Source: Hippasteria phrygiana
Taxonomy: Eukaryota > Echinodermata > Asteroidea > Valvatida > Goniasteridae
Direction: 5' to 3'
DNA length: 64,000 nt
Assembly: GCA_037893225.1 (NCBI GenBank)
Contig: JAZGUH010000195.1
Coordinates: 1,116,001 to 1,180,000, forward strand
The notes under the pieces were generated by a model. That model saw only the letters and a list, made by a program, of their open reading frames with translations. It ran no database searches and was not told the origin of the DNA. Below are positions 801 through 49,617 of this stretch, piece after piece. Position 1 is the stretch's first letter; the number at the start of each line of letters is the position of its first letter. The position numbers were made by a program, and so were the translations under genes.

Positions 801-1731
801 GCCCAGTCGTCGTTTGATGACCTAAAAGCATTTCAAGCAGTAAATATGGGAAACAAATTAAGGGCATTTCTCAAACCTGGCTTGGGCTTGGGCTTCGGCT
901 TCGCGTAATTTTATGGTCCCAGATTTGGCAAGATCTTGGATACTGTTTTTGCAACATGAACATTAAAGTCTTTTGTTTTAATCAAAAGCCAGAGCCTGTC
1001 CATTTATTTACGTATTCAAGGCTTCAGATTGGTAATGGGGCTGGGGATTAGCTGGAGATGAAGCCAAAGCCCGAGCCGAAGCCAAGGATTGAGAAATGCC
1101 CTAAATTGCTCAGCAAGATTCAGACTGGTGCCATAATGCAACCAGTATGCAACTGAAGTGCTTACAAAGGGCACCAGTCTGAATTTGTAATGGTTATGGT
1201 GACTGATTAGTAAAGGTGACTGCATGGACTTGGAACGAGACTGTTGAGCTTGGATACCTGCTGCAATCTGCATGTCTCACAGTGCCTGTGCTTGTCATGA
1301 ATCTCTTGACATGAGAAATGTATGACTCAAGTACAACTACGCATACTCCAGTTTCCAAAGGTCTGACTTCTTTTAACCAAAGCGTCATCCCCCAAAGTAT
1401 TCTTCATCAATGATTCCCAGACCAATGGTACATTTTCAAGGAATGGTCGTGTGCATTTTCTATTTTTCAAAGATCTTTTCAACCAAACCAATTTTTCAGT
1501 CAAATGCTTTTTGACCCAATAGGGTGCCTCCAAGGCAATGCATGCTTCAAGGAAACATACATGTGATTCCTTCATTACTCATTGATTCACTCATTTCTTG
1601 AGGGTAGAACGCAGAGCAGTTTTTCATAAGTCTGAGTCATACTGCTCTGTCCGGAGTTGCCTGAAGCATCTGTCATGGGACCTTTTAACATGAAATATAA
1701 TGTACAAATATTGGCTGCTTCGAATGGTGTA

Positions 1732-1852
1732 GTAAAACTAGCCTCCCGATCGAGGTGATTCATGGAGCTTATGGAGCATTCTATTTTTCCTGAGGCGAAG
1801 CTGAGGGAAAAATGGAATGCTCCATGGATCACCGAGGGAGGCTAGTTTTATC
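1732..1852. mobile_element. Fold-back MITE of about 120 bp
   Basis: An almost complete palindrome: the arm AAAACTAGCCTCCC at the left matches GGGAGGCTAGTTTT at the right, and homology continues through most of the element to a short GAGGCGAAGCTGAGG centre. This is the form of a miniature inverted-repeat element. It ends about 85 bp upstream of the QSOX exon acceptor. Confidence 0.75.
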
Positions 1853-1935
1853 AAGACACAGAATATCTTGGTGAGGTGTTATAATCAGAGTGCATGCAGA
1901 CATCGTACTCATGTAGCTCCATATCTTTATTGCAG

Positions 1936-2071
1936 TCTGGTGCTTTTTTGAAGAATGATGTGAAATGGGTCGGATGTCAGGGAAGTACATCTGTGTATCG
2001 TGGTTACCCATGCGGCCTCTGGGTTCTTTTTCACACACTAACAGTGAGCCATGCCAGTCTGGATTTGCATT
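1936..2071 (+). CDS. QSOX: QSOX exon (penultimate), ERV/ALR domain part
   Basis: Quiescin sulfhydryl oxidase makes protein disulfides in the secretory pathway, passing electrons to oxygen through FAD. This exon encodes the stretch with WVGCQGS and the [14 protein letters not shown] motif, which is the start of the ERV/ALR oxidase domain in the family. The acceptor is TTTATTGCAG just before 1936. I chose the GTAAGT donor at 2072 over an earlier GTGAGC at 2044 because it leaves one base over, and that matches the phase of the next exon at 3240. Upstream exons (thioredoxin and helical domains) are not visible in the window. Confidence 0.88.
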
Positions 2072-2114
2072 GTAAGTACATGTACATGTATTTAATACAT
2101 ATCTTTGTTCGCCC

Positions 2115-2275
2115 CCCCGAACAAAGACCACTGATGACAGTTTGGGAGGCCGCCAACATAGGGCAAGATAGCTCAGTTGGTAGAGCGCCGGTACGTATTC
2201 CGGAGGTCGCAGGTTCGAATCCCGCTCCTGCCAGTTTTCTTTGTTCACTTTGAAATTGTATGTAGTATTTGACAT
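2115..2275 (+). repeat. tRNA-derived SINE, family B
   Basis: A tRNA-like core at about 2162-2235 carries box A (TAGCTCAGTTGGTAGAGCG), box B (GGTTCGAATCC) and a CCTGCCA end. It is preceded by a conserved leader (CGAACAAAGA, TTTGGGAGGC, CCAACATAGGGCAAG) and followed by AGTTTTCTTTGTTCA. The same leader and core recur at 29660-29760 and 45695-45805, so it is a repeat. The anticodon stem pairs poorly, which argues against a working tRNA. It lies in the last QSOX intron. Confidence 0.8.
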
Positions 2276-2770
2276 ACATGTAGCGTAATCTTTTAATCTA
2301 TTTCTAAATGCTTCAAAAGCTAGCTGGAAGTTGTTGATGGCAGCTAACATTGCATACTTGATTATTCCCCTAAAGCAGTTTACACAAACTAGTCAGGAGT
2401 CAAATTTCATACAAATATCCACTAGACCATTGATTAGCTACATTTTTAGTAGCACAAGTGATCCACTTTGCAAGAATAGTTTCTACAAGACCACTGCCTG
2501 TCAAAATTTGCAAAAGACATTCTGTGTAGGTTTCCTGTCGGCAGTAATTTTTTTCAAGTGAAATTTTGTTTTAAAGTAGATGAAAATAAACAAGCCGTGC
2601 TTTATTTATTCAATGTGTGAAATCTGAGATTGATTTTATAGAAAAAGTCAGTTATTTGAAGAAAAAAAAGTCACCAGCTTATTTTTTGTATAAAGAGAAC
2701 AGTGCATGTCAAAAATTTGAAATGTACAGCACAGCATGTGACATTAATACTGCATCCCTCCGGAAGAAGC

Positions 2771-2834
2771 CTAAGGCCAAATAAAAAAAAATACATGTTT
2801 AGCGTCCCCGCCTGCTTCCTTTTTTGAAGCCGGC

Positions 2835-2867
<33 letters not shown>

Positions 2868-3110
2868 GAAGAATAATTGATCTTTTTCGAAAAAAAAAAA
2901 AAATCCCAAAACAAAAAGTCGTATTTTTAGACTCTAGCATCACCTGGTGTATGCTGGCGGCCATCTTGAAAAATAGCCCAGCCGGACGTCTTGGAAAATG
3001 TGTCGAGCGGCCATTTTGAAAAAAAAAAAAAAAAAAAAAAAAAGGGCCTCCTCCTTCCTATTTTTCAAAAAGGCAGGACGCTAAACATGTTTTTTTTTTA
3101 TTTTGCCTAA
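2771..3110. mobile_element. MITE in the last QSOX intron
   Basis: Terminal inverted repeats of about 35 bp pair CATGTTTAGCGTCC on the left with GGACGCTAAACATG on the right, extended by an A-run or T-run and GGCCAAAT / ATTTTGCC. Long T and A homopolymers (near 2838 and 3019) fill the middle. There is no coding capacity. Confidence 0.7.
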
Positions 3111-3239
3111 TAACCTGAATGCTGGAAGTCAAGGTATCAAAGCAAATTGTGTTATTGATATTACATGTACATGTATATGGATTTTGTATGTGTCGGCCAC
3201 TTTCAGTATAGCATTTACCATTTTTGTTTTTACATGTAG

Positions 3240-3802
3240 ATGCAGAATCTGACAGCAAGGAAGTACTTCAAGCAATGACGGGTTATATTCACTTCTACTT
3301 CAGTTGTAGAGTTTGCAGTGATCATTTTTCCAAAGAAAGTGCCCACCTTGAGTTCAGTGTGAGAACATTAGATGAGTCAATTCTTTGGCTGTGGCAAATT
3401 CATAATCGAGTCAATAAGCGCCTTGCAGGAGATCTATCTGAAGATCCCAAGCATCCAAAGATAGCATTTCCATCTCTTACTGATTGTCAGAAATGCCATG
3501 CACCCAGTCACTGGAACAACTCAAGTGTCTTATTTTTCATGAAGGAGTTATATGGTGTGAACAATATTGATGTCAGTGTTTCCGAAGTTGGACCTAAAGA
3601 ACATGATAGGATAACAGCTGCCCATCTCAAACATGTAAAGATTGACGTAAAAGCAACATATGGATACTTTAAACTGGGTATAGATACAACAGATATTGGT
3701 ATTTGCTTTGTTCTCTATGCTCTGTGTGTATTATTCTTAATTTTCATTTATGTTTACGTGAGACACAGAAGAAAGATTAAAAAAATAAAGTTCTTTTTCT
3801 GA
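3240..3802 (+). CDS. QSOX: QSOX last exon: ERV/ALR C-terminal half and TM anchor
   Basis: The exon starts after TTTACATGTAG and runs to a TGA stop. It encodes the redox CxxC (CRVC), the FAD-contacting LWLWQIHNRVNKRLAG signature and a second CxxC (CQKC), all in the family order. A hydrophobic segment (IGICFVLYALCVLFLIFIYV) then leads into a short basic cytoplasmic tail ending KKIKFFF. The first full codon needs one base from the preceding exon, which fits the 2071 donor. In animals the protein is a Golgi/ER-exported sulfhydryl oxidase; the TM segment fits a membrane-anchored form. Paralogue (QSOX1 or QSOX2) cannot be decided here. Confidence 0.93.
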
Positions 3803-4072
3803 AGATTCCTTAGTTTAAGGTATTGGAAAAATCATCCAAAAACAAATGTTGACCAGATTCCTATTAAGTTTTCTTTCAACAAATTTTGATTTGGGGAGAT
3901 TTTTTTCATCCAAATCATCGTCATAAATTTAATGAATCCAATGAAAATGATGTTTTCTTATGTAGTACTGAATGTAAATAATGTTTTTTTCTGACACCAA
4001 TATTTTGTAATTTTTAATTTTTTTTCTTCAAAAGCAAGTTGCATTTCTGAGTTTCAGGGATGGTGCAATAGA

Positions 4073-4760
4073 GCGTGTAAGTTGACTCCGAGAACGTACG
4101 AGAGTTTATGAGAAACCGAACTTCCAGGCACCTCGAATAGGAGCTTCAACGTGTAAAGCGAGTAGTTTTCTTGAAATAATTTGTTTGACGCAGTTCTTTT
4201 TACTGAAAGGTAAATAAAAACTTTTAGCAAAATATTATTTTTAATTTCAATTTACAAAATGTGAACGATATATCAAATTAGGGAAAAGGAGAACAAAAAA
4301 GTCTAGTACGTCATACGTGACACGACAAAACGTCATTCCCCATTGTTCTGGTGTTTCACGCGCCAGTCTTAATAGCGTAGACCATGTGCAGTATAAGGCG
4401 GTCATCGCATATGTTTGTACGTTCACTTACGTCCGCAGCGCGCGTATGCAGTACAGGGGTTTTGGGGGACGGGCTCTCTCTTCCCGACAACGAGCCAATC
4501 ACGTTGCAACCTGAAGCTCAGGTCAAACATTTTTTCCTACTTTTCTTCAATAATTTAGACAGTCGTGCATGTTTTCATATACATATTGTAAAATTAATTT
4601 TGAAGTTAACATCCATATTTATGGCCGTTTCATGGTTCAGATCTTCGTTAAAACAAAGTATTGTAGAAAACAAAATCAACCACACGTAAAAGTCCTATAG
4701 CCGGCGGCTCGGAGGTGCCCGGAAGTTCAATCGTGACCTTTATGTGCGAGACTTACACAG
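4073..4760. mobile_element. Non-autonomous TIR element, about 690 bp
   Basis: Degenerate inverted ends: GTGTAAGT...GAACTTCCAGGCACCTCG on the left and CGGAGGTGCCCGGAAGTTC...ACTTACAC on the right. The interior has no recognisable coding sequence. Boundaries are approximate because the arms have diverged. Confidence 0.5.
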
Positions 4761-5311
4761 TCTATTGCTATGAAAAAACACAGATGACTGCCATGTACAG
4801 TGTAGGTGGCATGTCTTGTATTTCTGTTTCCACATGCAATTTTAGGGCTCATATTGTCATTTGCCATAATCACAGCCCTCCAATGAACCTTTTTTGTTTG
4901 GGAAGATGATATTCCTCAAATCTTATTTTTTAATGTAATAAAACCAGTTGTAACTTTGAACGTTAACACTTTCTAATATCAAGCCTTATTTGTAAATCAT
5001 CCTTTTGCCCATCTTTAATCTAAGTTACTTCTCTTTCTTTGTCCAATTTTCCACTTTCAGTGAATTTAAAGAATAGTTCTGTCCTGCATCAGTTTGAATT
5101 ATTTGTACCAAATCGAGGGACCCTTATTAATTAGTCAATGGGTATGAATAAAAAGTAGCATTTGTTTTTACTTCAAGTTTTCTAGCTTTTACTGCAATCT
5201 GTATGAATAAAAACGAAGTAAAAGCTAGCAAAATGCTTAAAGTAAAAACTTTGACTGGTCTAGCATTTATATTAAAAGTTATTTTCTATTTTTGTGCCCT
5301 TTCCTAACAAA

Positions 5312-5690
5312 ATGTATGAAGCACTGTACATGTACACATATGCTCAGTGCTTTCCAAGAGCATGTGGGAAAAAAATTCACAGGCTTATTACTTGGGCAGG
5401 AATTGAACCCACGACCTGCTTACTAGTGCAGGTGTCCTAACTACTCGACCACCGAGCTTGCCGGCGCTAACTGGCCGATTTGAATCCAGATTTGTAGCAG
5501 TGGGTACCACGTAATCAGTGTGAAAATAGAATTTGCATCGGGGATGATCTAAATTAGAAGTGACTCTTTTTTTACTGAAAGCACTGAGCATACAGTGCTT
5601 CATACATTACGTTGGAAAAAGGGCACAAAAAAATGTCAGGTCTAATTTACATCATCCCCAATGCAAATTCCATCTTCACACTGGGCTAAC
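5312..5690. repeat. Composite fold-back enclosing a tRNA-like SINE unit
   Basis: A - strand tRNA-like sequence at about 5391-5463 has a box B equivalent (GGGTTCAATTCC read on the -) and a GGCAAGCTCGGTGGTCGAG head. It is bracketed by inverted arms, ATGAAGCACTGTA...GCTCAGTGCTTTC at 5312-5355 and its complement at about 5575-5606. A second pair of arms (GAATTTGCATCGGGGATGAT near 5528 against ATCATCCCCAATGCAAATTC near 5650) overlaps it. Confidence 0.6.
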
Positions 5691-6204
5691 ATTTACGATG
5701 TACTTGACTTGATTAAGTAGCACATGCTTTGTTCTATAAAAAGGGGAAAAGACTACAAATTACTAGCATGTAATGTTCATATGGCAGTTTTAAGGTTGCT
5801 CCAGAGCTAACTTGAATTAGAAGACACAATTGAGAGAGACAGTATAGGAATGTTAGATTTGTATCTGTTGAGGACCCCTACCGCTTTGAGGAGGAAAATG
5901 TGAAGTAAATAACTAACTTTCTTGAACAGTTTTTGGGGAGATACACATGGCGGGGCATTGGCAGCAAACGACAACTTGGTGTTTTGCTCCGCATAAATTG
6001 AACAAGACGACGTCGTGTTTGCATGAGGATTTATCATAAATTAACAAATGCAGTCCAACGCAGCCTGTCTTTTTGTTTTAAAGCTTCCATTTGATTTAGG
6101 CATCTCGACTTTATAAAATTAATTCCATGGGTTTTCAACAACTCCTTCACGCACACTAAAGCCCAACATCATGAGGGACATGTACTATTCAGACTAGCGC
6201 TACT

Positions 6205-19999: not shown

Positions 20000-22900
20000 T
20001 CCCAAGGAGTTTGTCTGCTTTTGGTATTGTTGCTGTTATAACACAAAACTCCTTTTTGAATGCTAAGTGTTAGGAATGTAGAGTGTAGTTGTGCGCGCAA
20101 GCTGCACACTTTTTTCGCTCTGTATATTTCATGTATTATATCCTGCTATTCACATTAGTTTGTTGCATATTTTATATCACCCTGAAGAGCTAACACCAAG
20201 GAATCTTCTGGTGCTATCTACATGTTGTCATCTACTCTTCTAGTTGAAATATTGATGTTGGAAATCTTCAATTTTTGCTCACTGGAAGGTAATATTCATC
20301 AATGGGCTTTTCAGCCATGCAAACCACGGATCAATGACTCATCAGCCAAGCCACAAGCCTGACCATGCTTGAACAATAAGAGGAGCTGCTGTTTGTCTCC
20401 TGCCCACTGCCTTATACAATGGAGGTGTTAACTTGGAGTTTCCTGTTTGCCCTTGTTCTGGTGTGTGATGTGCAGGGATTAGCAAGTGAACAGTCTGCCA
20501 GATATGCATACTCTCCAGCATATGGCCCAACATGGAAGAGATTGACCATCAAGTGTTACCTGAAAACACCTATTCCATACTACCAGAATTCTTCTTCAAA
20601 TTTCAACATTGCCCTGTTAATCTGTGGGGATATAAACCCCAACCCTGGTCCTGTTAGTGAAATAACTACAGCTGCAGTCATCAACAAACCTACTCATAGG
20701 TATGAGCGTGAGCATCTCCTGAGTATCGGTTTAAGATGTAAAACAATACCCGTTTCTCCAGCTACATGGTCCACCTTGAAAGACCTACGAATAAACACAA
20801 AGCGACCGTCACGTCGAGGAAACCGATCTGACCCCCCAACACAAGTGGTACATGCAATACCAACTGTATCCTCGGACAATGACCTGCATATATCATCAAC
20901 ACCGCCAACATCAACAGACAGTAGTCTGAAACAACCCATGCTCTCCAAACTGTGTGTCCTAAATGCCCAGTCTGTGTGCAATAAAACCAACCTACTGACT
21001 GACTACTTTATTGAACATGATTTTGATTTGATTGCACTGACTGAAACTTGGTTATCAGCTACTGATAAACATGATAAAATAATAGGTGAATTATGCATTC
21101 CTGGATATGACATGTGTCATGTACCTCGTCCAAATGGAACTGGTGGGGGTATTGCTCTCATATATAAGACTAATATCAAACACGGCCCAATAACATCACA
21201 CAGTAGTGGTAATTTTGAAAGTCTATGTTGTGATGTAACTGTCAAAGGAACTTTCTCATCCGTGAAGCTGGTAATCATCTATAGGCCACCATACAGCTCA
21301 AAGAATCGTATAACCCCTACAATGTTCCTTGACGATTTCTCCGAATATGTCAGTGTACTCTCGGCATCCCCAAGCAAGTTGCTGATTGTTGGGGATTTTA
21401 ATTTCCACTGGGATACAGATGATTCTGCTGCTCGCCACCTCAATGATATAATTCAAAACACTAACCTGAAACAGTTTGTATGTGCTCCTACACATGTGAG
21501 TGGCCATATATTGGACCTTGTCTTTGCACGACCCACGGACAACCTAATTGATTCAGTGGATGTTGCATGTTTTCTGACAGATCATGCTGCTTTGCATTGT
21601 GCACTGAATCTGACTAAACCTCAACCAACTAAGAAGCATATTTCCTATCGGAAATATGGATCTCTAGACCATGACAGTTTTTCCAACGATATTAGCCAGT
21701 CAAAATTGTTTACCAACCCGTCCAATGACCTCCAAACACTCATAGATCAGTACAACTCCACACTGAAGTCTATTCTGGAAAAGCATGCTCCACTGAAAAC
21801 TCGCTGTATTACCATTAGACCAGCCAATCCATGGTATTCCCCGGAGATTGCCGATGCCAAGAGACACCGCAAGAAATTGGAGAGACGCTGGAGGAAAACC
21901 AGATCAGAATCTGATAGAAACCAATTTAAAGCGCAACGACTCTGTGTTGTTAATATGATCAACAGTGCCAAATCATCATACATCAAAGAAAAACTAGCCA
22001 GCTGTGGGAACCAGAGAGAGCTCTACAAAATTGTTGAATCTCTACTCCACAACAAAGGAAAAACTAAACTACCCACACACGAGAATAAACAGGAATTGGC
22101 GACAACTTTTAGTGATTATTTCATAACAAAGATTCGGAACATTCGTAATAATCTTGACCGCGATCTAGATTGTATGCAGCCGTATACCACCGAGTCATCT
22201 CACTCTGATATTACACCATTGGAAGAATTCACACCAGCTCTGGATGAGGAAATCAGGAAAATCATCAAATCATCACCATCAAAGACGTGCGATTTGGATC
22301 CAATTCCTACCTGGCTCCTAAAGAACAATCTGAATATTTTGACTCCAGTTATCTCCAAAATTGTCAACCTGTCTCTTCAATCTTCTAAATTCCCACAGCA
22401 ATTTAGAAATGCCCTGGTGACTCCTCTGCTGAAGAAACCCACCCTCGATCCTGAAAACCTCAAGAACTTTCGTCCCGTATCCAACCTTTCATTCATATCC
22501 AAAGTAATAGAGAAGGTTGTTTATTCCCAAATTACTGATCATCTGACTGAACACAATCTACATGAACCATTGCAATCTGCGTATAGAAAACATCATGGAA
22601 CAGAGACTGCTCTTCTAAGAGTTAAGAACGATATTCTCCGGGCAGTTGACGATAAGCGTGGTGTGTTCCTTGTTCTCCTTGATCTCTCTGCAGCATTCGA
22701 CACTATAGACTATGATGTTTTATTCCACCGCCTTCAGTCCATCGGTGTTACTGGTCCAGCCCTGCAATGGATTAGATCATATATATGTCATCGAACACAG
22801 ACTGTAAACATCAATGGATCTTTATCATCTCCCATCTCACTTTCTTCTGGCGTCCCTCAAGGATCAGTATTAGGTCCCTTATTCTTCACAATATACTCCG

Positions 22901-23956
22901 AGCCTATTGCCGCTATTGTACGGAGGCATCAACTTCAAGTTCATTGCTATGCAGACGACACACAGATATATGGATCGTTTCATCTAGGAAACCAAGACGA
23001 CGAACATTCCGTGAGACAGCGTATTGAACAATGTGTTTGTGATCTTAAGCAATGGATGACCAGGAATAAATTAAAATTTAACGACGACAAGACTGAACTT
23101 CTAATTATCACTTCCAAACGTAGCCAGGATAAAATCAGATGCAACCAGATGCAATTTGGGACTTCTAATATTCAACGTTCTACGACTGCACGTAATCTTG
23201 GCATCATGTTTGACAGCACGATGTCAATGGAATCGCATGTCAAGAAAGTTTGCCAAACGTCATACTACCATATTAGAAACATCAACAGCATCCGCCGAAT
23301 CCTGACTGATGAGTCGGCTGCCATCCTTATCCATGCTCTCGTGACATCAAGGTTGGATAATGGCAACTCACTTCTGTTTGGAATCACCAACACTCTCATG
23401 TGCAAACTTCAACATGTTCAAAACACTGCGGCTCGTGTCTTATCCCGAACACGGAAATTTGACCACATTACTCCAGTCCTGAGAAATCTTCACTGGCTTC
23501 CAGTCAAACAGAGGATTGCCTTCAAAATAATCCTACTTACCTGGAAAGCCCTCAATGACAGCGCACCAACATATCTGCAGGATCTCTTCACCCAGTATTC
23601 CCCTAATCGCCACCTAAGGTCATCTGACAAACATCTTCTTGTGACACCAAGAACTAGAACATCGTATGGGGACTATGCCTTCTCAGTTACGGCGCCCACT
23701 CTATGGAACTCTTTGCCTCAGGAAATTCGTAGCTGTCAATCTTTACATACCTTCAAATGCCTTCTTAAAACATTCCTGTTTAACTCAACTTATAATTAGA
23801 TTGCTGGTTTTGTTTCAAGTATACATACATGTACATGTATATTTAATTTTTTGTAGAGTTCTGGACAGTTTCTTTTCTTCAAGCGCCTCGGAATATGTCT
23901 ACATAGATAGATGGCGCTTTACAAATGCTTGTATTATTATTATTATTATTATTAAT
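20000..23956 (+). mobile_element. Full-length LINE of the CR1/L2 type
   Basis: A 5' UTR of about 400 bp precedes an intact ORF (20419-23799). The 3' end carries GGCGCTTTACAAATGCTT followed by a (TTA)n tail at about 23931-23955, the usual end of L2/CR1-like LINEs, which have microsatellite tails instead of poly(A). It is inserted in the DIRS element. The 5' boundary is approximate; no target-site duplication was identified. It is the only large TE ORF in the window without a break, so the insertion is likely recent. Confidence 0.85.
20419..23799 (+). CDS. LINE ORF: signal-like leader, 2A-like motif, endonuclease, reverse transcriptase
   Basis: The protein is 1126 aa and unbroken from an ATG. 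Residues 1-20 are hydrophobic (WSFLFALVLVCDV) and signal-peptide-like. Residues 61-78 end in GDINPNPGP, close to the 2A consensus D(V/I)ExNPGP but with N for E at the third position. An APE endonuclease follows at about 178-400, with N182 in LNAQS, E209 in TETWL, D326 in GDFNFHWD and D388-H389 in TDHAAL. Reverse transcriptase runs from about 640 to 930, with LKNFRPVSNLS, LLDLSAAFDTID, SGVPQGSVLGPL and the catalytic YADD at 844-847. No separate ORF1 was found. All catalytic motifs are intact, so it may be active. Confidence 0.93.
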   Translation: MEVLTWSFLFALVLVCDVQGLASEQSARYAYSPAYGPTWKRLTIKCYLKTPIPYYQNSSSNFNIALLICGDINPNPGPVSEITTAAVINKPTHRYEREHLLSIGLRCKTIPVSPATWSTLKDLRINTKRPSRRGNRSDPPTQVVHAIPTVSSDNDLHISSTPPTSTDSSLKQPMLSKLCVLNAQSVCNKTNLLTDYFIEHDFDLIALTETWLSATDKHDKIIGELCIPGYDMCHVPRPNGTGGGIALIYKTNIKHGPITSHSSGNFESLCCDVTVKGTFSSVKLVIIYRPPYSSKNRITPTMFLDDFSEYVSVLSASPSKLLIVGDFNFHWDTDDSAARHLNDIIQNTNLKQFVCAPTHVSGHILDLVFARPTDNLIDSVDVACFLTDHAALHCALNLTKPQPTKKHISYRKYGSLDHDSFSNDISQSKLFTNPSNDLQTLIDQYNSTLKSILEKHAPLKTRCITIRPANPWYSPEIADAKRHRKKLERRWRKTRSESDRNQFKAQRLCVVNMINSAKSSYIKEKLASCGNQRELYKIVESLLHNKGKTKLPTHENKQELATTFSDYFITKIRNIRNNLDRDLDCMQPYTTESSHSDITPLEEFTPALDEEIRKIIKSSPSKTCDLDPIPTWLLKNNLNILTPVISKIVNLSLQSSKFPQQFRNALVTPLLKKPTLDPENLKNFRPVSNLSFISKVIEKVVYSQITDHLTEHNLHEPLQSAYRKHHGTETALLRVKNDILRAVDDKRGVFLVLLDLSAAFDTIDYDVLFHRLQSIGVTGPALQWIRSYICHRTQTVNINGSLSSPISLSSGVPQGSVLGPLFFTIYSEPIAAIVRRHQLQVHCYADDTQIYGSFHLGNQDDEHSVRQRIEQCVCDLKQWMTRNKLKFNDDKTELLIITSKRSQDKIRCNQMQFGTSNIQRSTTARNLGIMFDSTMSMESHVKKVCQTSYYHIRNINSIRRILTDESAAILIHALVTSRLDNGNSLLFGITNTLMCKLQHVQNTAARVLSRTRKFDHITPVLRNLHWLPVKQRIAFKIILLTWKALNDSAPTYLQDLFTQYSPNRHLRSSDKHLLVTPRTRTSYGDYAFSVTAPTLWNSLPQEIRSCQSLHTFKCLLKTFLFNSTYN

Positions 23957-35769: not shown

Positions 35770-35945
35770 TCAGTGGCGTAGCCAAGGGGGCATGGGGAGC
35801 GCACGCCACCCATAAAAAATCTTCGCGTCCCCCCACACACACTGAAAATATCGCAAATGCAGAAAATAAGTGTTATAAAGAAAAACCCATTGTGAAAGCC
35901 CCACCACCGTAACATACACCCCCCCCCCCCCCCCCCCCCCCAGGA
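35770..35945. repeat. AGTGGCGTAGCC-type repeat with C-run of 23
   Basis: CAGTGGCGTAGCCAAGGGGG, GCGCACGCCACCCATAAAAA and CACTGAAAATATCG match the pattern at 51520-51640 (GGGCGCACTTCCCCCCCC, ATAAAAATCATCGGGC, CACTGAAAATTCC). A run of 23 C closes it at 35919-35941. Confidence 0.55.
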
Positions 35946-36991
35946 TCAAATGCAGCGTTAAAACGTTATGGCCACAAATACAGTAGGGGGAAAGTGTTAG
36001 TTAAGGGGCCAAGAAATATGTACACGAGTGTAGGAGAATGTCTCCCAACTTTATCTTTTGCGGTAATCATCATCACTGGTATCATCTTCATAATCACCAT
36101 GAGCACCATCATCGTGTAGGAGAGTGAAAGTGGTTTGACTGACTTCGTTGAGGGCCCACATCCTTACGTAAATGCTGTGATAGAAATGCAGACGTGAAGC
36201 CGTGTCCTCAGCAGCAGACATCAAGACAGTTTAATACAATGAATACAATAGGTTTTATTTCAATACGACGAATAAGGGTATGTTTGAGTTGCAGGCACTC
36301 TCTCTCTGTGTTATTGCTATTCAGCCAAGATGCAAGGTGCTGGTGTTGTGGAAGACCATTCTCTTACACCTCGTCAAATAAGACAAGTGTATTTAATCAC
36401 CTATAGTCAAGCAAATGAGGCCCTAATTTCATCTCGGGAGGAGTTTGCAGAGGTGGTATTGCATGCTTTCCACCCAACGGAGGATGACACTGAAGTGGTG
36501 GTCCAGTGGGTATGTGCCCAAGAGACCCATTTGGATAGGGGTTTGCACTACCACATGGCGGTGAAACTTCACCAGGTTCAGCGATGGCTGCAGCTTAGGA
36601 ATTTCTTCGAGCAAGAGAACGGTATCCGGGTTTAATACTTTTCCTCCAATCATTGTAACTACTACAGTGCATGGAAATAGTTGACGAAAGATGGCGTGGC
36701 ATTCGCTCAATCCGAAGGCCATCCTAACTTGGCGAACGCTTTGGCCCCCAGAACCGCTCAGGCCTCCCAGGCACGAGACGGGGATCGAGAACCTGAAGAT
36801 GGTCACGCCCGCATGAAAGGGCAAAAAAACAATTGACGGCATTTAAAGTGTCCCAACTTGCTGTTTCTAGAGGCATCAAGACTCAGCTGGAGCTGTTGGC
36901 CCTTGCAAATCAACAAAAAATGGAGAGGAAAAGAGATTTAGCGGAGTTTATCACCAATATGTTACACAATGTTGTGGAGCATGCTATCCAG

Positions 36992-37288
36992 GTATAACTA
37001 TAAAAATATATATTCTATTTCTGTTTTCCGTTCCATTTCTCCTGCATTCAATCAGTCATCATTCATCCCTCCCTCCTATCTTCAGACATTCTTTAAAACC
37101 CTAACCCCCCTGGGTACATGCAAAATCATATTAAAATTGATGGATTTGGCAGGGTTAGGGTTGGAAATTGTATACATTGTTTTAATATTGTTTAGACAAT
37201 AAATGCTCAGATAAAAATTCCAGGTCTTTCTTTCTTTCATTTTATTCACCTCATCGAAGTAATTTGTATTTTACTTTATTTTTGGCAG
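36992..37288 (+). other. Spliceosomal intron of the Rep-like pseudogene
   Basis: The donor is CAG|GTATAA and the acceptor TTTTTGGCAG. Removal joins two coding pieces in phase 0 without disturbing the frame. AACCCTAACCCCCC and GGGTTAGGGTT inside it form a short inverted pair. Confidence 0.75.
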
Positions 37289-37472
37289 GACGGATGGGAG
37301 CCAGAAAATGCTGAGGAGACTTTGGAATGTTCTCGGATGAGTCAACTTGATTTGTTGTGTCAAGCGTCGCTCAGCGAATGCATTTGTGAAGGTCATTGGA
37401 AGACATGTGTCAAGGAGATCCTCCGAAACAACAGGGTGGAAAAGGCCACATTCGCTGAAGCCTGCAGAGAAT

Positions 37473-37623
37473 GTAAGCACTTATCCAGAACCACCAAAAT
37501 GACATCGTCATGTATTACTGAAAATGCACTAGGTCTTATTGAATAGGCACAAGGCCTTGTTGAATAGGTATACGGCGCGATGCGCGCGACGATGTCATTT
37601 GGTGGTTCTGGATAAGTGCTTAC
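37473..37623. mobile_element. MITE inserted in the Rep-like pseudogene, 151 bp
   Basis: Inverted arms of about 37 bp start GTAAGCACTTATCCAGAACC on the left and end with the complement on the right. GCAGA is present directly outside both ends, probably part of a target duplication. It separates the linker from the Walker A segment. Confidence 0.85.
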
Positions 37624-38339
37624 CGCAGATAACTCCTTGAGAACAGCCTTGAGTATCGCAATGTGATGATCATTGGCCCTGCTAACTGCGGGAAGACGTT
37701 CCTTCTCAACCCACTTAACAGCATCTACCGAACCTTCACAAACCCAGCAAGTTCTACCTTAGCCTGGGTCGGGGCCGAGAATGCTGAAGTGATTTTTTTC
37801 AAATGACTTTCGATGGTCACCATGTTTTTAGAGGGCCAGGTCATCCATTTGTCAGCACCCAAATCTTACGATGCCAGCAACCCCCTATTCGAGTCTGAAG
37901 CTCCCATCTTTGCAACCAGAAAACTTCAACTGGTGTTTGTCCGGGGAGGTGCTGTGGATGACAGAAAAACCGAAATGATGGCAGCAAGATTTCACCTTCT
38001 ACCAGATCCCAGAACAAGAACGAAATGTCGAATCGTGTGCGCATTGTTTTGCCACACTTATCCTGGGCTAACTAAAGAAACCATTGTGTACTTGAATAAA
38101 ATCATGTCCTTAAACGTACAATTTGGCTCTTCTTTATTTTTTTTACACATTTTGTGACGTCATCAGTAGAATGAAAAAAGAGACACAAATCGATTACAAA
38201 GAAACAAGTTTGTTTTGCACTTCCATTTGCTTCATTGATCATATTTGGAGGTACATGTATCTTTGTTAGAACAAAAAATAAGGTGGAACCCTGTACGAAC
38301 ATGCTTAGAAACCTAACACAGACTAGGGCAATTGATCCA

Positions 38340-38735
38340 TTGGATTAGATTTGTGGGCAAAAGAGGTGGCATCTAAACAGAATGCAATGCGATTTGTCCA
38401 CACGCGGGTATTCACGGCGCATTTTCTTGGCGAACCTCACTCATTTCTGCAGATCCAAATCCGTCACATGTCCCTTCTTACAAGCTTGCCTGTATTTGAA
38501 TCCAAGTCGATTCATGGCCAGGGGTGTGAGCTGAAAAAGCTGAAACAGCTGGAAAAAGCTGAAATTTTGGAAAGCTCCTATAATTTTGTACACAGCAAGT
38601 GTATAAAAAGAGCTGAAAGTCAAAACAAAAAAAGCTGAAATCAGCTTAAAAGCTGAACTCTCACATCCCTGCATGGTGCGTCTGAAGGTCCTGTCTGAGA
38701 CATGTGTCAGTCTGCATGCAGCCTTTAGTCTCGCC
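38340..38735 (-). pseudogene. Tc1-like (IS630) transposase relic
   Basis: On the - strand, TLARLKAACRLTHVSDRTFR (helix-turn-helix region) is followed, after an inserted MITE, by MNRLGFKYRQACKKGHVTDL. FAKKMRREYP and WTNRIAFCLDATSFAHKSNP come next, the region of the first catalytic D in Tc1-like enzymes. A stop falls between segments. It sits just downstream of the Rep-like pseudogene on the other strand. Confidence 0.75.
38519..38671. mobile_element. hAT-like MITE inside the Tc1-like relic
   Basis: The left end is CAGGGGTGTGAGCTGAAAAA and the right end CAGCTTAAAAGCTGAAC then CTCACATCCCTG. AGCTGAAA is repeated throughout. CATGG occurs next to both ends. The CAGGG-type terminus suggests hAT mobilisation, which is inference. 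Confidence 0.7.
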
Positions 38736-39601
38736 AAGGTAAATGACCCCCCCTCTGTTTTTCTCAGTTTTTGCACATTTCTCACCAAAAGGCACTCCTG
38801 ACGCCTGGCCAAAAGTCTTTTTCACCCACCTCTGCTACGGTGAGAATGGTCAACACGCCCGTCACTTGCACAAATGTGTTGAACCGAACTACGGGATACT
38901 TGGCACGTTGCCGCTATTTTTTCTCAGACAAATATATGCACGATTTTCGTTTGAAATAAAACCATAAAATATTATGCTGACAAATGTCTCTGTTGCCTTC
39001 TGCACCAACCATCCAATGCTTTAGTTCACTTCAATGTATTTTCTCAGCCCTACCAAGGCTGCAGTTTATCTCTGTCCACTCAACTTTTTACAGATAAACT
39101 AAGTGAACTTTTAGACAATCCCGGCCAAAATGCTTGGGCCACGTGACAATAAACATACCACCCCCATGCCCCCCCCCCCCCCCGGCCCCCGCCCCAGGCC
39201 CCCCCCCTACTCAATGTTCTTGTTGTAATCTCAAGTTGGAGCGCATACCACGCAATGAGAGCCAACATTGACTGGGGGAAGGGGGCCGGGGGCCCAACGA
39301 GATTTGGCCGGGATTATAACCTCTGGCACAACCATGATCATTGTAAATGGAAATACATTTTGGCCATATAAACCTTTTGAATATGGATTCCCTTTTTAAA
39401 ACGCCCTGTATGTCTGCCGCCCTGTATGTCTGGCGCCCTGTATGTCTGGCACCCCCGCCCCAAAAAAATAAAAATAAATAAAAAATAAGAAAACACACAC
39501 AAAATAAGCCTTGTCAAAGGGAATATATGTGATGACTGCAAAATAGCTAGAACTCAAAAACCGTTTTCTATCAATTTTCCATCACATGTACATGTACTTA
39601 C

Positions 39602-46707: not shown

Positions 46708-49617
46708 ATGCCTCGTGAGGTTAGAAAACAGTGTTGTATTTGCAAAACAGGAGTAAGTTGTAGATTTTATTCATCTAGTGTTTATCAGGACGATATCAAA
46801 CCTTGTTTTTTGCTTCAAGATGATCGTGAAGGTGATTTGTGCACCTCGTGTAAAACGTCCATTGTTAATTTTCGGGCAGACAAATCAGTAAATTTCGCGC
46901 ATCGCGTAGATAGTAAGCTTCAGTTTGGTGCGTTTCCTCAACGAAAAAATCGGCGGCAAACGTGAAAGAAAACTAATAGAGCAAGTGGAAAAAAGCGTAG
47001 AAAAAGAACGTGATGAAGCACCCTCAAGCGAGGTTGAAGAATTAAAAGGGAAAATTGAAACTCTTGAAGCAGAAAACAAGAAACTCAGAGAATTCAAGGA
47101 AAATGTAAAACACCATCTAGGAGTTGATAGGACATGTGAGGTACATCAACTGAAAAATTCTGCACTACGGCATATTTCAGCTACCTCAGGGACGGGGGAT
47201 AAAGATATCTTAAAAGTTCAGAGCAAACATGGGCGTCCAAAGGTTTTTGTTAGGGTTCCTGTTGCTGTGGTGGGAAGTTCTACTTGTACGAAAGAGAGTC
47301 TCCGTAAAAGGAGCCAGTTGATTGAAAAGGTAGAAAAAATCCAATCTGGAGGTATGTTTCCTACAAGTTCAACTTGCAGTGCTGGTTCACAGTCAAGCTC
47401 TGGTAGGACTACTCCCTCAGCGGCAGGAACACGTCCCTCAACCCCAGTGCTAGCTTCTTTGGATGATGTTGCTGCTCAGCGCGCTTGGAATATAAAGCAA
47501 AAAAAAGAGGAGTATGCAACAGCATCCCAAGCAGCAGGCTTAAACGTTTGCACTCAGTTCTCAAGGAAAACAATAAATGGGTTGCGTAGCCTCATGCCAG
47601 AGACCATGTGGGTTTTTCTTTAAAAAACCCTAGAAAAAGAAACGGGGCAAAAGTTGTTAGGAACGCGACAAGCAATGAGATCTTCAACAGAAGTTCCTGA
47701 CAAGTATGAGTTTGGTTCTTTCCAAGGAAGTGGGGGGAGCACTGTTCACTTCAGCCGAGTTATGGATGTTGGAAATCTGATTAAACACGTTGTCACAGAA
47801 TCTGTTGAAACAAATATGATGGTGAAAAGCTTCGATGATACATTATGGTTCCATGTTTCCGGGGATAAGGGTGGTAAAAGTACAAAATTTGTCATCCAAA
47901 TTCTGAATGTCAAGGACAGTCACTCTGTCAAATTGCTCAACTTGTTGGGAATATTCGAAGGTGGGAAAGATGACAGGATCAACATTGAAGCAGCATTCAA
48001 CCCTGTTTTTGAGAAACTTCTAGAGATTACTGGGGACATCTCAAAGCTGCAGCTCCCAAAACCAGATATTCATGACAACCTGTTCACAGATGAAATGGTT
48101 CAGGCAGGGGTGGATGAGAAATTAGATTTCACTCCTCTGGAAAAAATTGATCACAGTAACAGGTTCATCAGCCCCAATTGCAGGTACTGCCAGCAAGCTT
48201 CATCTTCATTCGGGGCAGAACAAGATCAGTCTAGTTCAAAAATGGAAGACCCTAAAATTTACACAAAGTGTAAACTGACATGGGGCGGTGATTGGGAATG
48301 GATAGCAAAAGTACTTGGATTGACAGGTCCCAATGGTTTTCATTTTTGCCCCCACTGTCTTGCCACACTAAATGACCTTCAGCGCGGTAAGCCTCATGCT
48401 TTACATGTCATGGAGGAATACAAAAATGAGGATGAAGATAATGGTGTACCTGCATACAGTCAGCAAAGAGACCTGGCAACCTGTCATGCGAAGGCCCAAG
48501 ATTTCATTGCAAGAGGTGCAAAAAAGGAACAGGCTAAGCATTTTGACAACTGCATTCAACATCCACTTATAGGCACCAAGGATCGGGTCATTGAGCATGT
48601 GTCAGTCAGTCCCTTGCATATAGGTTTAGGACTGGGGTTACAGATGTTTGAGATTGTCGAGAAAAATGCACAACAATTAGACAAACAAATCCTCATAAAT
48701 AATGGGATGCATAATGCTGTAGATGATTTGTATGCGCGCGTTGCAGATTTGGCTAAGGAACAAAATGAGTTGCGCGATTCCAAGAGAGAACTTGAAGATG
48801 ACCTTGGCGCTAAGCATGACCAGGTTGCTCAGGTACAGTCAGATAATCCTAATCATTTTTCCAAAACGGATCAGAAATTAAATGACAACAGTCTACAAGC
48901 TAGGAATTCTAGGAAGCAGGTTCAGCAGCTGAATAGTCAAATCAAGGGACTTGAAAAAAGAAATCGAGGCATTGACAAAGAGATTGGTAGCAATGAAAAG
49001 GTACAGGCTGAGGTTAGAGATGAAATTCAGAGGGTTCCAGGACCATTTATGAGTAGGTTTAGCACAGCCATAGAAGGATTAGGCATTAGGAGACAGTCAT
49101 ATCATGGTGGATCATTAATTGGGGGTGATGTACACAAGATGTTGAAAGATGCCAACTACAACCAGTTTTCTGAAATTTTTCTTCCTTTCAGTCTCAACAC
49201 ACCCACTGGGCTCCAAACATTTGGGTCCAAAGAATTGTCTGAGAAAATCAGTGCAATGTTTGACAAATATAAATCCTGTTATGACTTGTACACTGTACAT
49301 AGATTGTTGTGTAAGCATGAAGTCGAGTTGCTAGCCTTGCGGTGTTCCGAGTTTGGTTGCTGGTTCCCAATCAACTTTCCAACAGAAAACCTTAAACGAA
49401 AATTTCATCTTCTCACAGTTGAAGTCCCAAGGCAGGCTAGGATATTAGGAACTGTTGGCATGATGTCTGAACAGGCCACAGAGAGCATTCATGCATATGC
49501 GAATAAATTAGAGCGTATGTTCGTCAGTGTGCGCGAGCCTGCTAAGCGACAAAAACTTGTGCTCAGACAACATGCCATGTACAGCTCCCCTCAGTTGCGA
49601 CATCTCAAAATGTAGAA
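46708..49617 (+). pseudogene. Transposase-like gene: SINHCAF-like zinc finger, coiled coils, DDE-like core (three frames)
   Basis: Frame 1 (46708-46965) encodes a zinc-finger-like block with CCICK, RF, a Y..D...CF stretch, GD.C..C (C9, C12, C33, C45, C48) and HRVDSK, very close to the SINHCAF/FAM60A domain. A frameshift near 46945 leads to frame 2 (to a TAA at 47623) with a coiled coil (VEELKGKIETLEAENKKLRE) and a Ser/Thr-rich linker. The same frame resumes to 49615 with 653 more residues. These include GDKGGKSTKF (D71), WGGDWEWIAK (D213) followed by FCPHC (a CxxC), SPLHIGLGL, a long coiled coil (357-460) and MMSEQATESIHAYANKLER (E606/E610). I infer D71, D213 and one of the E residues as a DDE triad with a coiled-coil insert, as in the KDZ group. 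Only two breaks in about 970 codons suggest recent decay. Confidence 0.72.

Follow-up and report, generated by a model that had tools for sequence, protein, structure and literature searches.

The window, i.e. the whole 64,000-nt stretch analyzed here (C195:1116001-1180000), contains a dead HUH/SF3 Rep-like gene at 36330-38073 (+), recognized from its ORFs and motifs. Elsewhere in the genome, intact relatives of this gene are paired with a transposase inside repeat-bounded elements. We put at roughly 64% the probability that what survives in the window is the dead remainder of such a two-gene composite transposon, in which Rep would use a hairpin origin within the direct terminal repeats (DTRs) to generate circles or concatemers and a DDE transposase would integrate them, the estimate applying jointly to the remnant and to this mechanism of replication and integration.

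The remnant covers at least 35942-39316, an interval that also holds a right terminal repeat and, on the minus strand, a decayed transposase, and the extent of 36330..38071 proposed by an earlier, sequence-only reading of the window is too short. By blastn, it aligns with positions 1425 to 6144 of an intact copy (L031/L032). On the left, the element is broken off at a poly-C run, with its terminal repeat and initial ~1.4 kb missing, and what remains of the left part, 5' of the Rep start, lies at 35942-36329 (+; element positions 1425 onwards). Rep exon 1 begins with the 101-aa HUH piece that carries the HYHM motif (36330-36632, +; 87% identical to an intact copy) and continues at 36633-36991 (+) as two pieces in different frames (36681-36833 and 36797-36991), the reading frame being lost at the tyrosine motif and shifting again before the intron. 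The predicted GT-AG phase-0 intron (36992-37288, +; cag/GTATAA...GGCAG/gac, with slashes at the boundaries) is 297 bp long vs 804 bp in the intact copy L023, part of it having been deleted in the window. Exon 2 opens with the start of the SF3-like helicase region (37289-37472, +) and is then interrupted by a MITE-like inverted-repeat insertion of 151 bp (37473-37623, unstranded) with 26-bp perfect arms and near-identical 8-mers, GCAGAGAA and GCAGATAA, one base beyond each arm, which we take to be hAT-like. The Walker A piece (GPANCGKTF; 37633-37803, +) and the C-terminal piece with CxxC (37807-38073, +) follow, and an additional stop splits the helicase part.

Downstream, residues 1-202 of a 389-residue Tc1/mariner (IS630-type) transposase persist as four decayed fragments at 38329-39065 (-; E = 2.4e-31, 3.7e-14, 1.5e-12, and 1.1e-5). 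The C-terminal half is deleted, with ~1 kb (element positions 4283-5322) absent near 38334. The transposase remnant is further interrupted at 38519-38671 (unstranded) by another small insertion, whose inverted ends, CAGGGGTGTGAG and CTCACATCCCTG, are imperfect. The right terminal repeat (CAATCCCGGCC...GGCCGGGATTA; 39116-39316, +), a candidate both for the origin hairpin of Rep and for an end used by the transposase, is followed by TAA, so that the TA is present and the CTAG context is absent. The features that the sequence-only reading had named (HYHMAVKLH, YYSAWK, the intron, GPANCGKTF, and CxxC) are all found in the order it gave, within 36330-38073 (+), and the copy is dead as it supposed, by stops, frame changes, the 151-bp inverted-repeat insertion, and deletions. 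Its tyrosine motif needs amending: YYSAWK is present, but the invariant YxxK-type motif of the relatives is YV[TL]K, directly after it. Synonymous divergence between the window HUH piece and an intact copy is 0.19, while no more than 12 SNPs separate intact copies across as much as 4.9 kb (indels excluded), and the window insertion is therefore much older than the intact copies.

A search of the genome (944 Mb, 1285 contigs) with the HUH piece returns 76 rows, the window's own included, some of them pieces of one gene. The best non-self matches are 87% identical (E = 1.2e-53) with open 234-aa frames, and 22 further rows are at least 80% identical across the whole piece, also with open frames. 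These rows and the intact relatives bear out the proposal of an intron-bearing Rep-like family resident in this genome. GT...AG signs are found at one codon position in all five Reps compared, i.e. family A, C2, C361, C14, and C598, the position of the 297-bp intron predicted in the window. As the C14 and C598 Reps have nearly the same sequence, C2, C361, C14, and C598 count as three further subfamilies. The HYHM and Y.SAW.YV.K blocks are invariant in the five aligned Reps, and the Walker A and B blocks, GPAN[CT]GKTF and EVIFLNDF, are common to four Rep sequences. All HUH and SF3 motifs that the sequence-only reading expected in one reading frame are present in relatives, but in two exons joined in phase. 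The HUH/SF3 feature is not due to chance, given the number of genome rows, their open frames, and the GT...AG signs at the same codon.

The Reps of CRESS-DNA viruses and plasmids have an HUH plus SF3 motif layout. The gene described here is like these in its probable domain order, in its HxH motif followed by a YxxK-type motif, in its Walker A and B motifs, and in the hairpin as a candidate origin; it is unlike them in its intron, its C-terminal CxxC, the lack of a capsid, its profile matches below cut-off, and its DDE-type ends. Specifically, PF23343 (a Rep family) is the top profile for five out of five exon-1 pieces, with E-values of 5.6e-4 to 0.033 that are below cut-off. For exon 2, the first profile is papillomavirus E1 (PF00519; E = 3.9e-4) in family A, Parvo_NS1 (E = 0.010) in C14, and a generic AAA model in C361, where Parvo_NS1 comes second (0.025). 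RNA_helicase models are also among the best exon-2 matches, and the 57-aa Walker piece of the window is topped by generic P-loop families, all again below cut-off. When compared with known structures as a single sequence, exon 2 of family A matches two Rep-named entries (E = 0.012 and 0.018). A profile built from four exon-2 sequences places Midasin first and E1 at E = 0.14 in the PDB, with those Rep-named entries absent, and the exon-1 profile returns chance rows alone there, with no meaningful match. Histone rows for the exon-1 profile and a de novo design matched by the HUH piece, both in the PDB, were taken as chance, and the fold prediction for the window HUH piece is uninformative (pLDDT 48). 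Checked against HUH_Rep and SF3 profiles, as had been suggested, the two halves are not assigned to unrelated families, with all matches below cut-off. We consider it likely that the Rep module belongs to the HUH/SF3 group.

Comparison of the extracted loci (eight insertions from the close family plus a ninth from the next family) yields an intact element of ~6.14 kb with the order DTR, Rep (two exons, +), transposase (-), and DTR. The DTRs are direct repeats of 171 bp, each forming a hairpin with inverted ends, and intact relatives are ~99% identical to each other. For example, the C965 copy spans L031:4786 to L032:929 and its two DTRs are identical (171/171). Between the left DTR and the Rep gene of this element lies a ~440-bp imperfect palindrome with 205-nt arms (87%; L031:5214-5653). 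In the C125 unit within L023, the ORFs of at least 150 aa are those of the Rep exons (open stretches of 234 and 248 aa, +) and one of 389 aa (-), with no other ORF of this length and none of capsid size. The 389-aa protein matches IS630 in NCBIfam (E = 1.1e-29) and DDE_3 in Pfam (E = 8.5e-13), both above cut-off, as well as the structures of Sleeping Beauty (SB100X) and Mos1 (E = 1.4e-6 to 3.7e-4). Counted by eye, 34 residues separate its last two presumed catalytic residues, the DD34E spacing. On these matches, the protein is an IS630/Tc1-type transposase. The search for full-length relatives, element ends, and a partner ORF that the sequence-only reading had recommended leads to ~6.14-kb elements with DTRs, a CTAG target, and a convergent transposase.

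It could be argued that these units are endogenous viruses, i.e. integrated CRESS-DNA or parvovirus-like genomes, since an HUH plus SF3 Rep, a hairpin, and tandem integration resemble the biology of such viruses and the sub-threshold Parvo_NS1 and papillomavirus E1 matches point the same way. We hold this to be highly improbable. The intact unit has no ORF of at least 150 aa besides the Rep exons and the transposase, it encodes its own transposase, and every copy inspected has intron-like GT...AG signs at the same position. Moreover, no Rep relative is found in viral contigs by pattern-based scans that need short exact peptide matches, nor in phages with the HUH piece or exon 2. Plasmids give chance-level matches with exon 2, prokaryotic genome contigs give no relative with the exon-1 alignment, PHROGs give weak matches that are mostly of unassigned function, and NCBIfam gives none for exon 1 and chance-level ones for exon 2. 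A viral ancestry of the Rep gene itself may still apply.

The ends of the element point to the transposase. Inside each DTR, terminal inverted repeats of 15 nt (ACAATCCCGGCCAAA and TTTGGCCGGGATTGT) are 100% complementary. Full or array copies read CTA/CAATCC at 7 of 7 left outer ends and GGATTG/TAG at 7 of 7 right ones (slashes mark the element boundary), a count in which two sites, both on C307, have common flanks and C397 lacks a right end. All six inner array repeats that were read have TCAGA/CAATCC...GGATTG/TCTGA, without TA. Among repeat copies without a scored partner, 11 of 14 have CTA and TAG at both sides; L054 is a left-hand end, with CTA on its left and an inner junction on its right, and L046 and L053 are right-hand ends, whose left side is an inner junction and whose right flank is not TA. 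Judged from the flanks of inserted copies, TA appears to be duplicated within CTAG at most copies read. Such inverted outer ends at a TA within CTAG are the signature of a DDE enzyme, and the AC or TTAC end suggested earlier is not what these copies have. The 171-bp repeat had 838 candidate places in the genome in a first look, of which 40 were scored, and solo copies also move or are left behind. One solo copy (L050) has flanks that are inverted copies of each other, and so seems nested in another inverted-repeat element.

A diverged subfamily (C2 type) keeps the Rep-transposase pair at five loci, with ends read at C2 alone. At C2 (L039/L040), the DTRs are 206-207 bp long and identical at 205 of 206 aligned bases, the ends read CTA...TAG, and the inner junctions (TTAGA/CAATC and GATTG/TCTGA) are like those of family A. 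C2 itself has a frame-broken exon 2 and one stop in its transposase; C939 and C318, of the same subfamily, have stop-free transposase frames. When A is compared with C2, Rep exon 1 has a dN/dS of 0.11 over 218 codons and the two parts of the transposase, of 169 and 183 codons, have values of 0.08-0.11, all of them approximate because dS is 1.5-2.1 and near saturation. By this codon-based estimate of ~0.1, Rep exon 1 and the transposase are both under purifying selection. The A and C2 DTRs are identical at 126 of 155 aligned columns, which with the gap costs used is not clearly above shuffles (mean 0.70, maximum 0.81), so their kinship rests on the common junctions. The DTRs are identical or nearly so within an element and diverged between subfamilies, as if renewed each cycle.

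Tc1/mariner transposons normally encode a transposase alone. The element is like them in its DD34E transposase, TA duplication, and inverted ends, and by its tested features it is a Tc1/mariner member; it is unlike them in the added Rep gene with intron, hairpin-bearing direct terminal repeats, and arrays. One could see an ordinary Tc1/mariner element that carries Rep as cargo and is moved by the transposase alone, with two 171-bp MITEs as its DTRs on either side of the cargo, much as insertion sequences flank a composite transposon, and with arrays and solo copies arising by recombination between them. The ends, the TA duplication, and the transposase would suffice for its movement, the many candidate places of the 171-bp repeat are what a MITE family would give, and arrays exist also without this transposase. 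We nevertheless find this account rather unlikely: Rep exon 1 is under purifying selection alongside the transposase, the DTRs are near-identical within an element and different between subfamilies, and both subfamilies have similar inner DTR junctions that lack TA, a pattern that two independent MITE insertions would not produce.

To assess linkage, all 76 HUH rows were set against 80 transposase rows, from a transposase list in which 106 of 283 candidates were scored. At least 28 of the 76 have a convergent transposase whose start coordinate lies 2.0-4.0 kb downstream. These include 26 of the 28 rows with at least 67% identity over most or all of the HUH piece, one of which is the window's own; a single C1125 gene, present as two fragments, accounts for the remaining two linked rows. 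Two rows at or above 67% are unlinked, one truncated (C397) and one with the transposase upstream on the same strand (C261). A further 46 rows have no convergent transposase within 8 kb among the matches listed, and all of these are at most 56% identical, bar one short 70% fragment. Weak transposase partners could be missed here, because 106 of the 283 candidates were scored.

Those 46 rows, together with several transposase-less Rep subfamilies that form tandem arrays (C361, C14, C598, and C564 were read as transposase-less Rep rows), would suit a Helitron- or replitron-like rolling-circle transposon in which Rep is the sole mobilizer and the transposase a passenger. For families A and C2, this explanation is largely refuted, and overall we give it very little credence, because the outer ends of full copies lie at a TA in CTAG with inverted ends, a DDE signature, and the transposase is intact and conserved. 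The sequence-only reading had favored a rolling-circle transposon or a captured viral gene; intact relatives are indeed transposons, but their ends and second gene are of the Tc1/mariner DDE type, and both of its alternatives pass over the main point, i.e. that these are two-gene elements with Rep and a transposase.

Folding either strand of the DTR gives a long, imperfect hairpin (z ~ -6; 0 of 200 shuffles as stable). The core consists of a C-rich arm, CAATGTTG, a loop, CAACATTG, and a G-rich arm, with one base varied per octamer. Families A and C2 both have it, and the C361 stretch contains it once; the same pattern was not found in the C14, C598, and C564 stretches. Since the core recurs in C361, near which no relative of this transposase was found, the hairpin more likely serves Rep, and we infer that it is the Rep replication origin.

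HUH rows recur at an even spacing of 5.8-6.0 kb in C125 (six), C367 (five), C186 (two), and C1125, and at other spacings elsewhere (6.4 kb in C361; ~8 kb in C14 and C1283; 13-13.5 kb in C598 and C364; 14 kb in C203; 25 kb in C77). In the head-to-tail arrays, as assembled, one DTR is common to both units at each junction, and the TA pair is found at the outer array ends alone (two arrays: C186, and C125 with its left end beyond the contig). Side-by-side separate insertions are unlikely because six inner DTRs are without TA. The two C186 units have 0 SNPs between them over 4.9 kb, leaving indels aside, and hold private alleles in common, and differ from every other unit by 2-12. The C125 units have one private allele in common, with 0-3 SNPs within the array and 1-10 to other loci, ranges that overlap. 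This pattern fits a concatemer from one template and, equally, local recombination after insertion. Because Rep subfamilies that lack this transposase form tandem arrays too, recombination could account for arrays. In L055 and in C83, C354, and C361, Rep units that are 6.44 kb long and lack this transposase lie head-to-tail beside a repeat of ~6.2-6.7 kb, which also occurs alone at many places and joins at (ACCC)n-like runs. L055:1-416 was considered as a C361 terminal repeat and rejected, its coordinates showing that a different ~6-kb repeat ends there. In C598, the ~13.5-kb tandem unit includes a transposase of piggyBac type (L057:9190-9999 and L058:3-887; PF13843, E = 2.6e-25 and 1.4e-52) and also a second Rep helicase fragment.

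The composite transposon that we favor, whose anatomy is read directly from the loci and whose replication we infer from it, would work as follows. Rep would nick the DTR hairpin and, with the help of its SF3 helicase, copy a circular or tandem template by the rolling-circle mode, yielding concatemers. The transposase would then pair the left edge and the right edge of two different DTRs and insert the stretch between them into CTAG. A single-unit insert would thereby have two identical DTRs and a longer one would form an array, and a transposase pairing both edges of one DTR would move the 171-bp repeat alone, giving solo copies. Integration would thus resemble that of a Tc1 transposon, and copying that of a CRESS or plasmid Rep replicon. 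Whether the element goes further, as an autonomous eukaryotic transposon that unites a Rep rolling-circle replicon with a DDE integrase, two mobility classes that are usually separate, is copied extrachromosomally from a hairpin origin within its long DTRs, inserts concatemers of one unit or more into CTAG, and renews its DTRs each cycle, seems to us evenly balanced.

Known systems share parts of this arrangement. Teratorn combines a DDE transposon with a partner replicon, reportedly a herpesvirus. According to the available text on it, Teratorn is a 180-kb composite with a piggyBac-like DDE transposon (PMC10175614); the element is like it in combining a DDE transposon with another replicon, and unlike it in size and content, 180 kb there and 6 kb with Rep alone here. 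The closest precedent, clear but partial, is a geminivirus-like transposon of the truffle Tuber melanosporum, which likewise has Rep and transposase in one element and is described, in the part of the paper available, as having a Rep-like ORF, transposase ORFs, terminal inverted repeats, and recent amplification (Liu 2011, PMC3198968). That description rests on a consensus in which the ORFs are interrupted, the inverted repeats measure 37 bp, and a target duplication is not obvious, and in its available part mentions no direct terminal repeats, arrays, or intron; unlike the truffle element, the one described here has intact genes, TA/CTAG ends, and direct terminal repeats (PMC3198968).

Like Helitrons and replitrons, the element is a eukaryotic transposon with an enzyme that is likely HUH. 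Replitrons, as characterized in the accessible sections of one account, have direct terminal repeats of 5-11 bp and no inverted repeats, and Helitrons have neither target duplications nor inverted repeats (PMC10741241). The element described here is unlike the former in its direct repeats of 171-207 bp with inverted ends, and unlike the latter in its TA duplication and inverted ends. Rotifer Terminons, in the portion of a review that covers them, are retroelements with Rep-like ORFs, an association called transient (PMC5718144). They too represent uptake of a Rep-like ORF by an unrelated transposable element; here, unlike in Terminons, Rep and transposase remain paired across two subfamilies. 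In the open literature as available, with subscription journals and Repbase outside its scope, we found no intact Rep plus Tc1/mariner element with hairpin DTRs and arrays. Compared with the truffle precedent, the intact Rep with a Tc1/mariner transposase, the hairpin direct repeats, and the arrays may therefore be new, an earlier report in print being possible.

DNA transposons are usually sorted, as the same review puts it in its available part, into cut-and-paste (DDE), rolling-circle (Rep/HUH), and self-synthesising types (PMC5718144). Intact DDE and Rep genes kept across two subfamilies would show a replicon borrowing a transposase, or the reverse, and the element offers a path between the Reps of ssDNA viruses or plasmids and transposons. 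If true, terminal repeats renewed each cycle would be a DNA-only analogue of retrotransposon LTRs. The young, near-identical copies are material for direct tests of circle formation and array growth.

Two other features of the window are worth recording. An open 1139-aa ORF of a non-LTR retrotransposon, with endonuclease and reverse transcriptase, lies at 20380-23799. At 46910-49615, two adjoining ORFs of 237 and 663 aa stand in one frame with a single stop between them, and the second (663 aa) matches DUF1280 (E = 1.4e-13).
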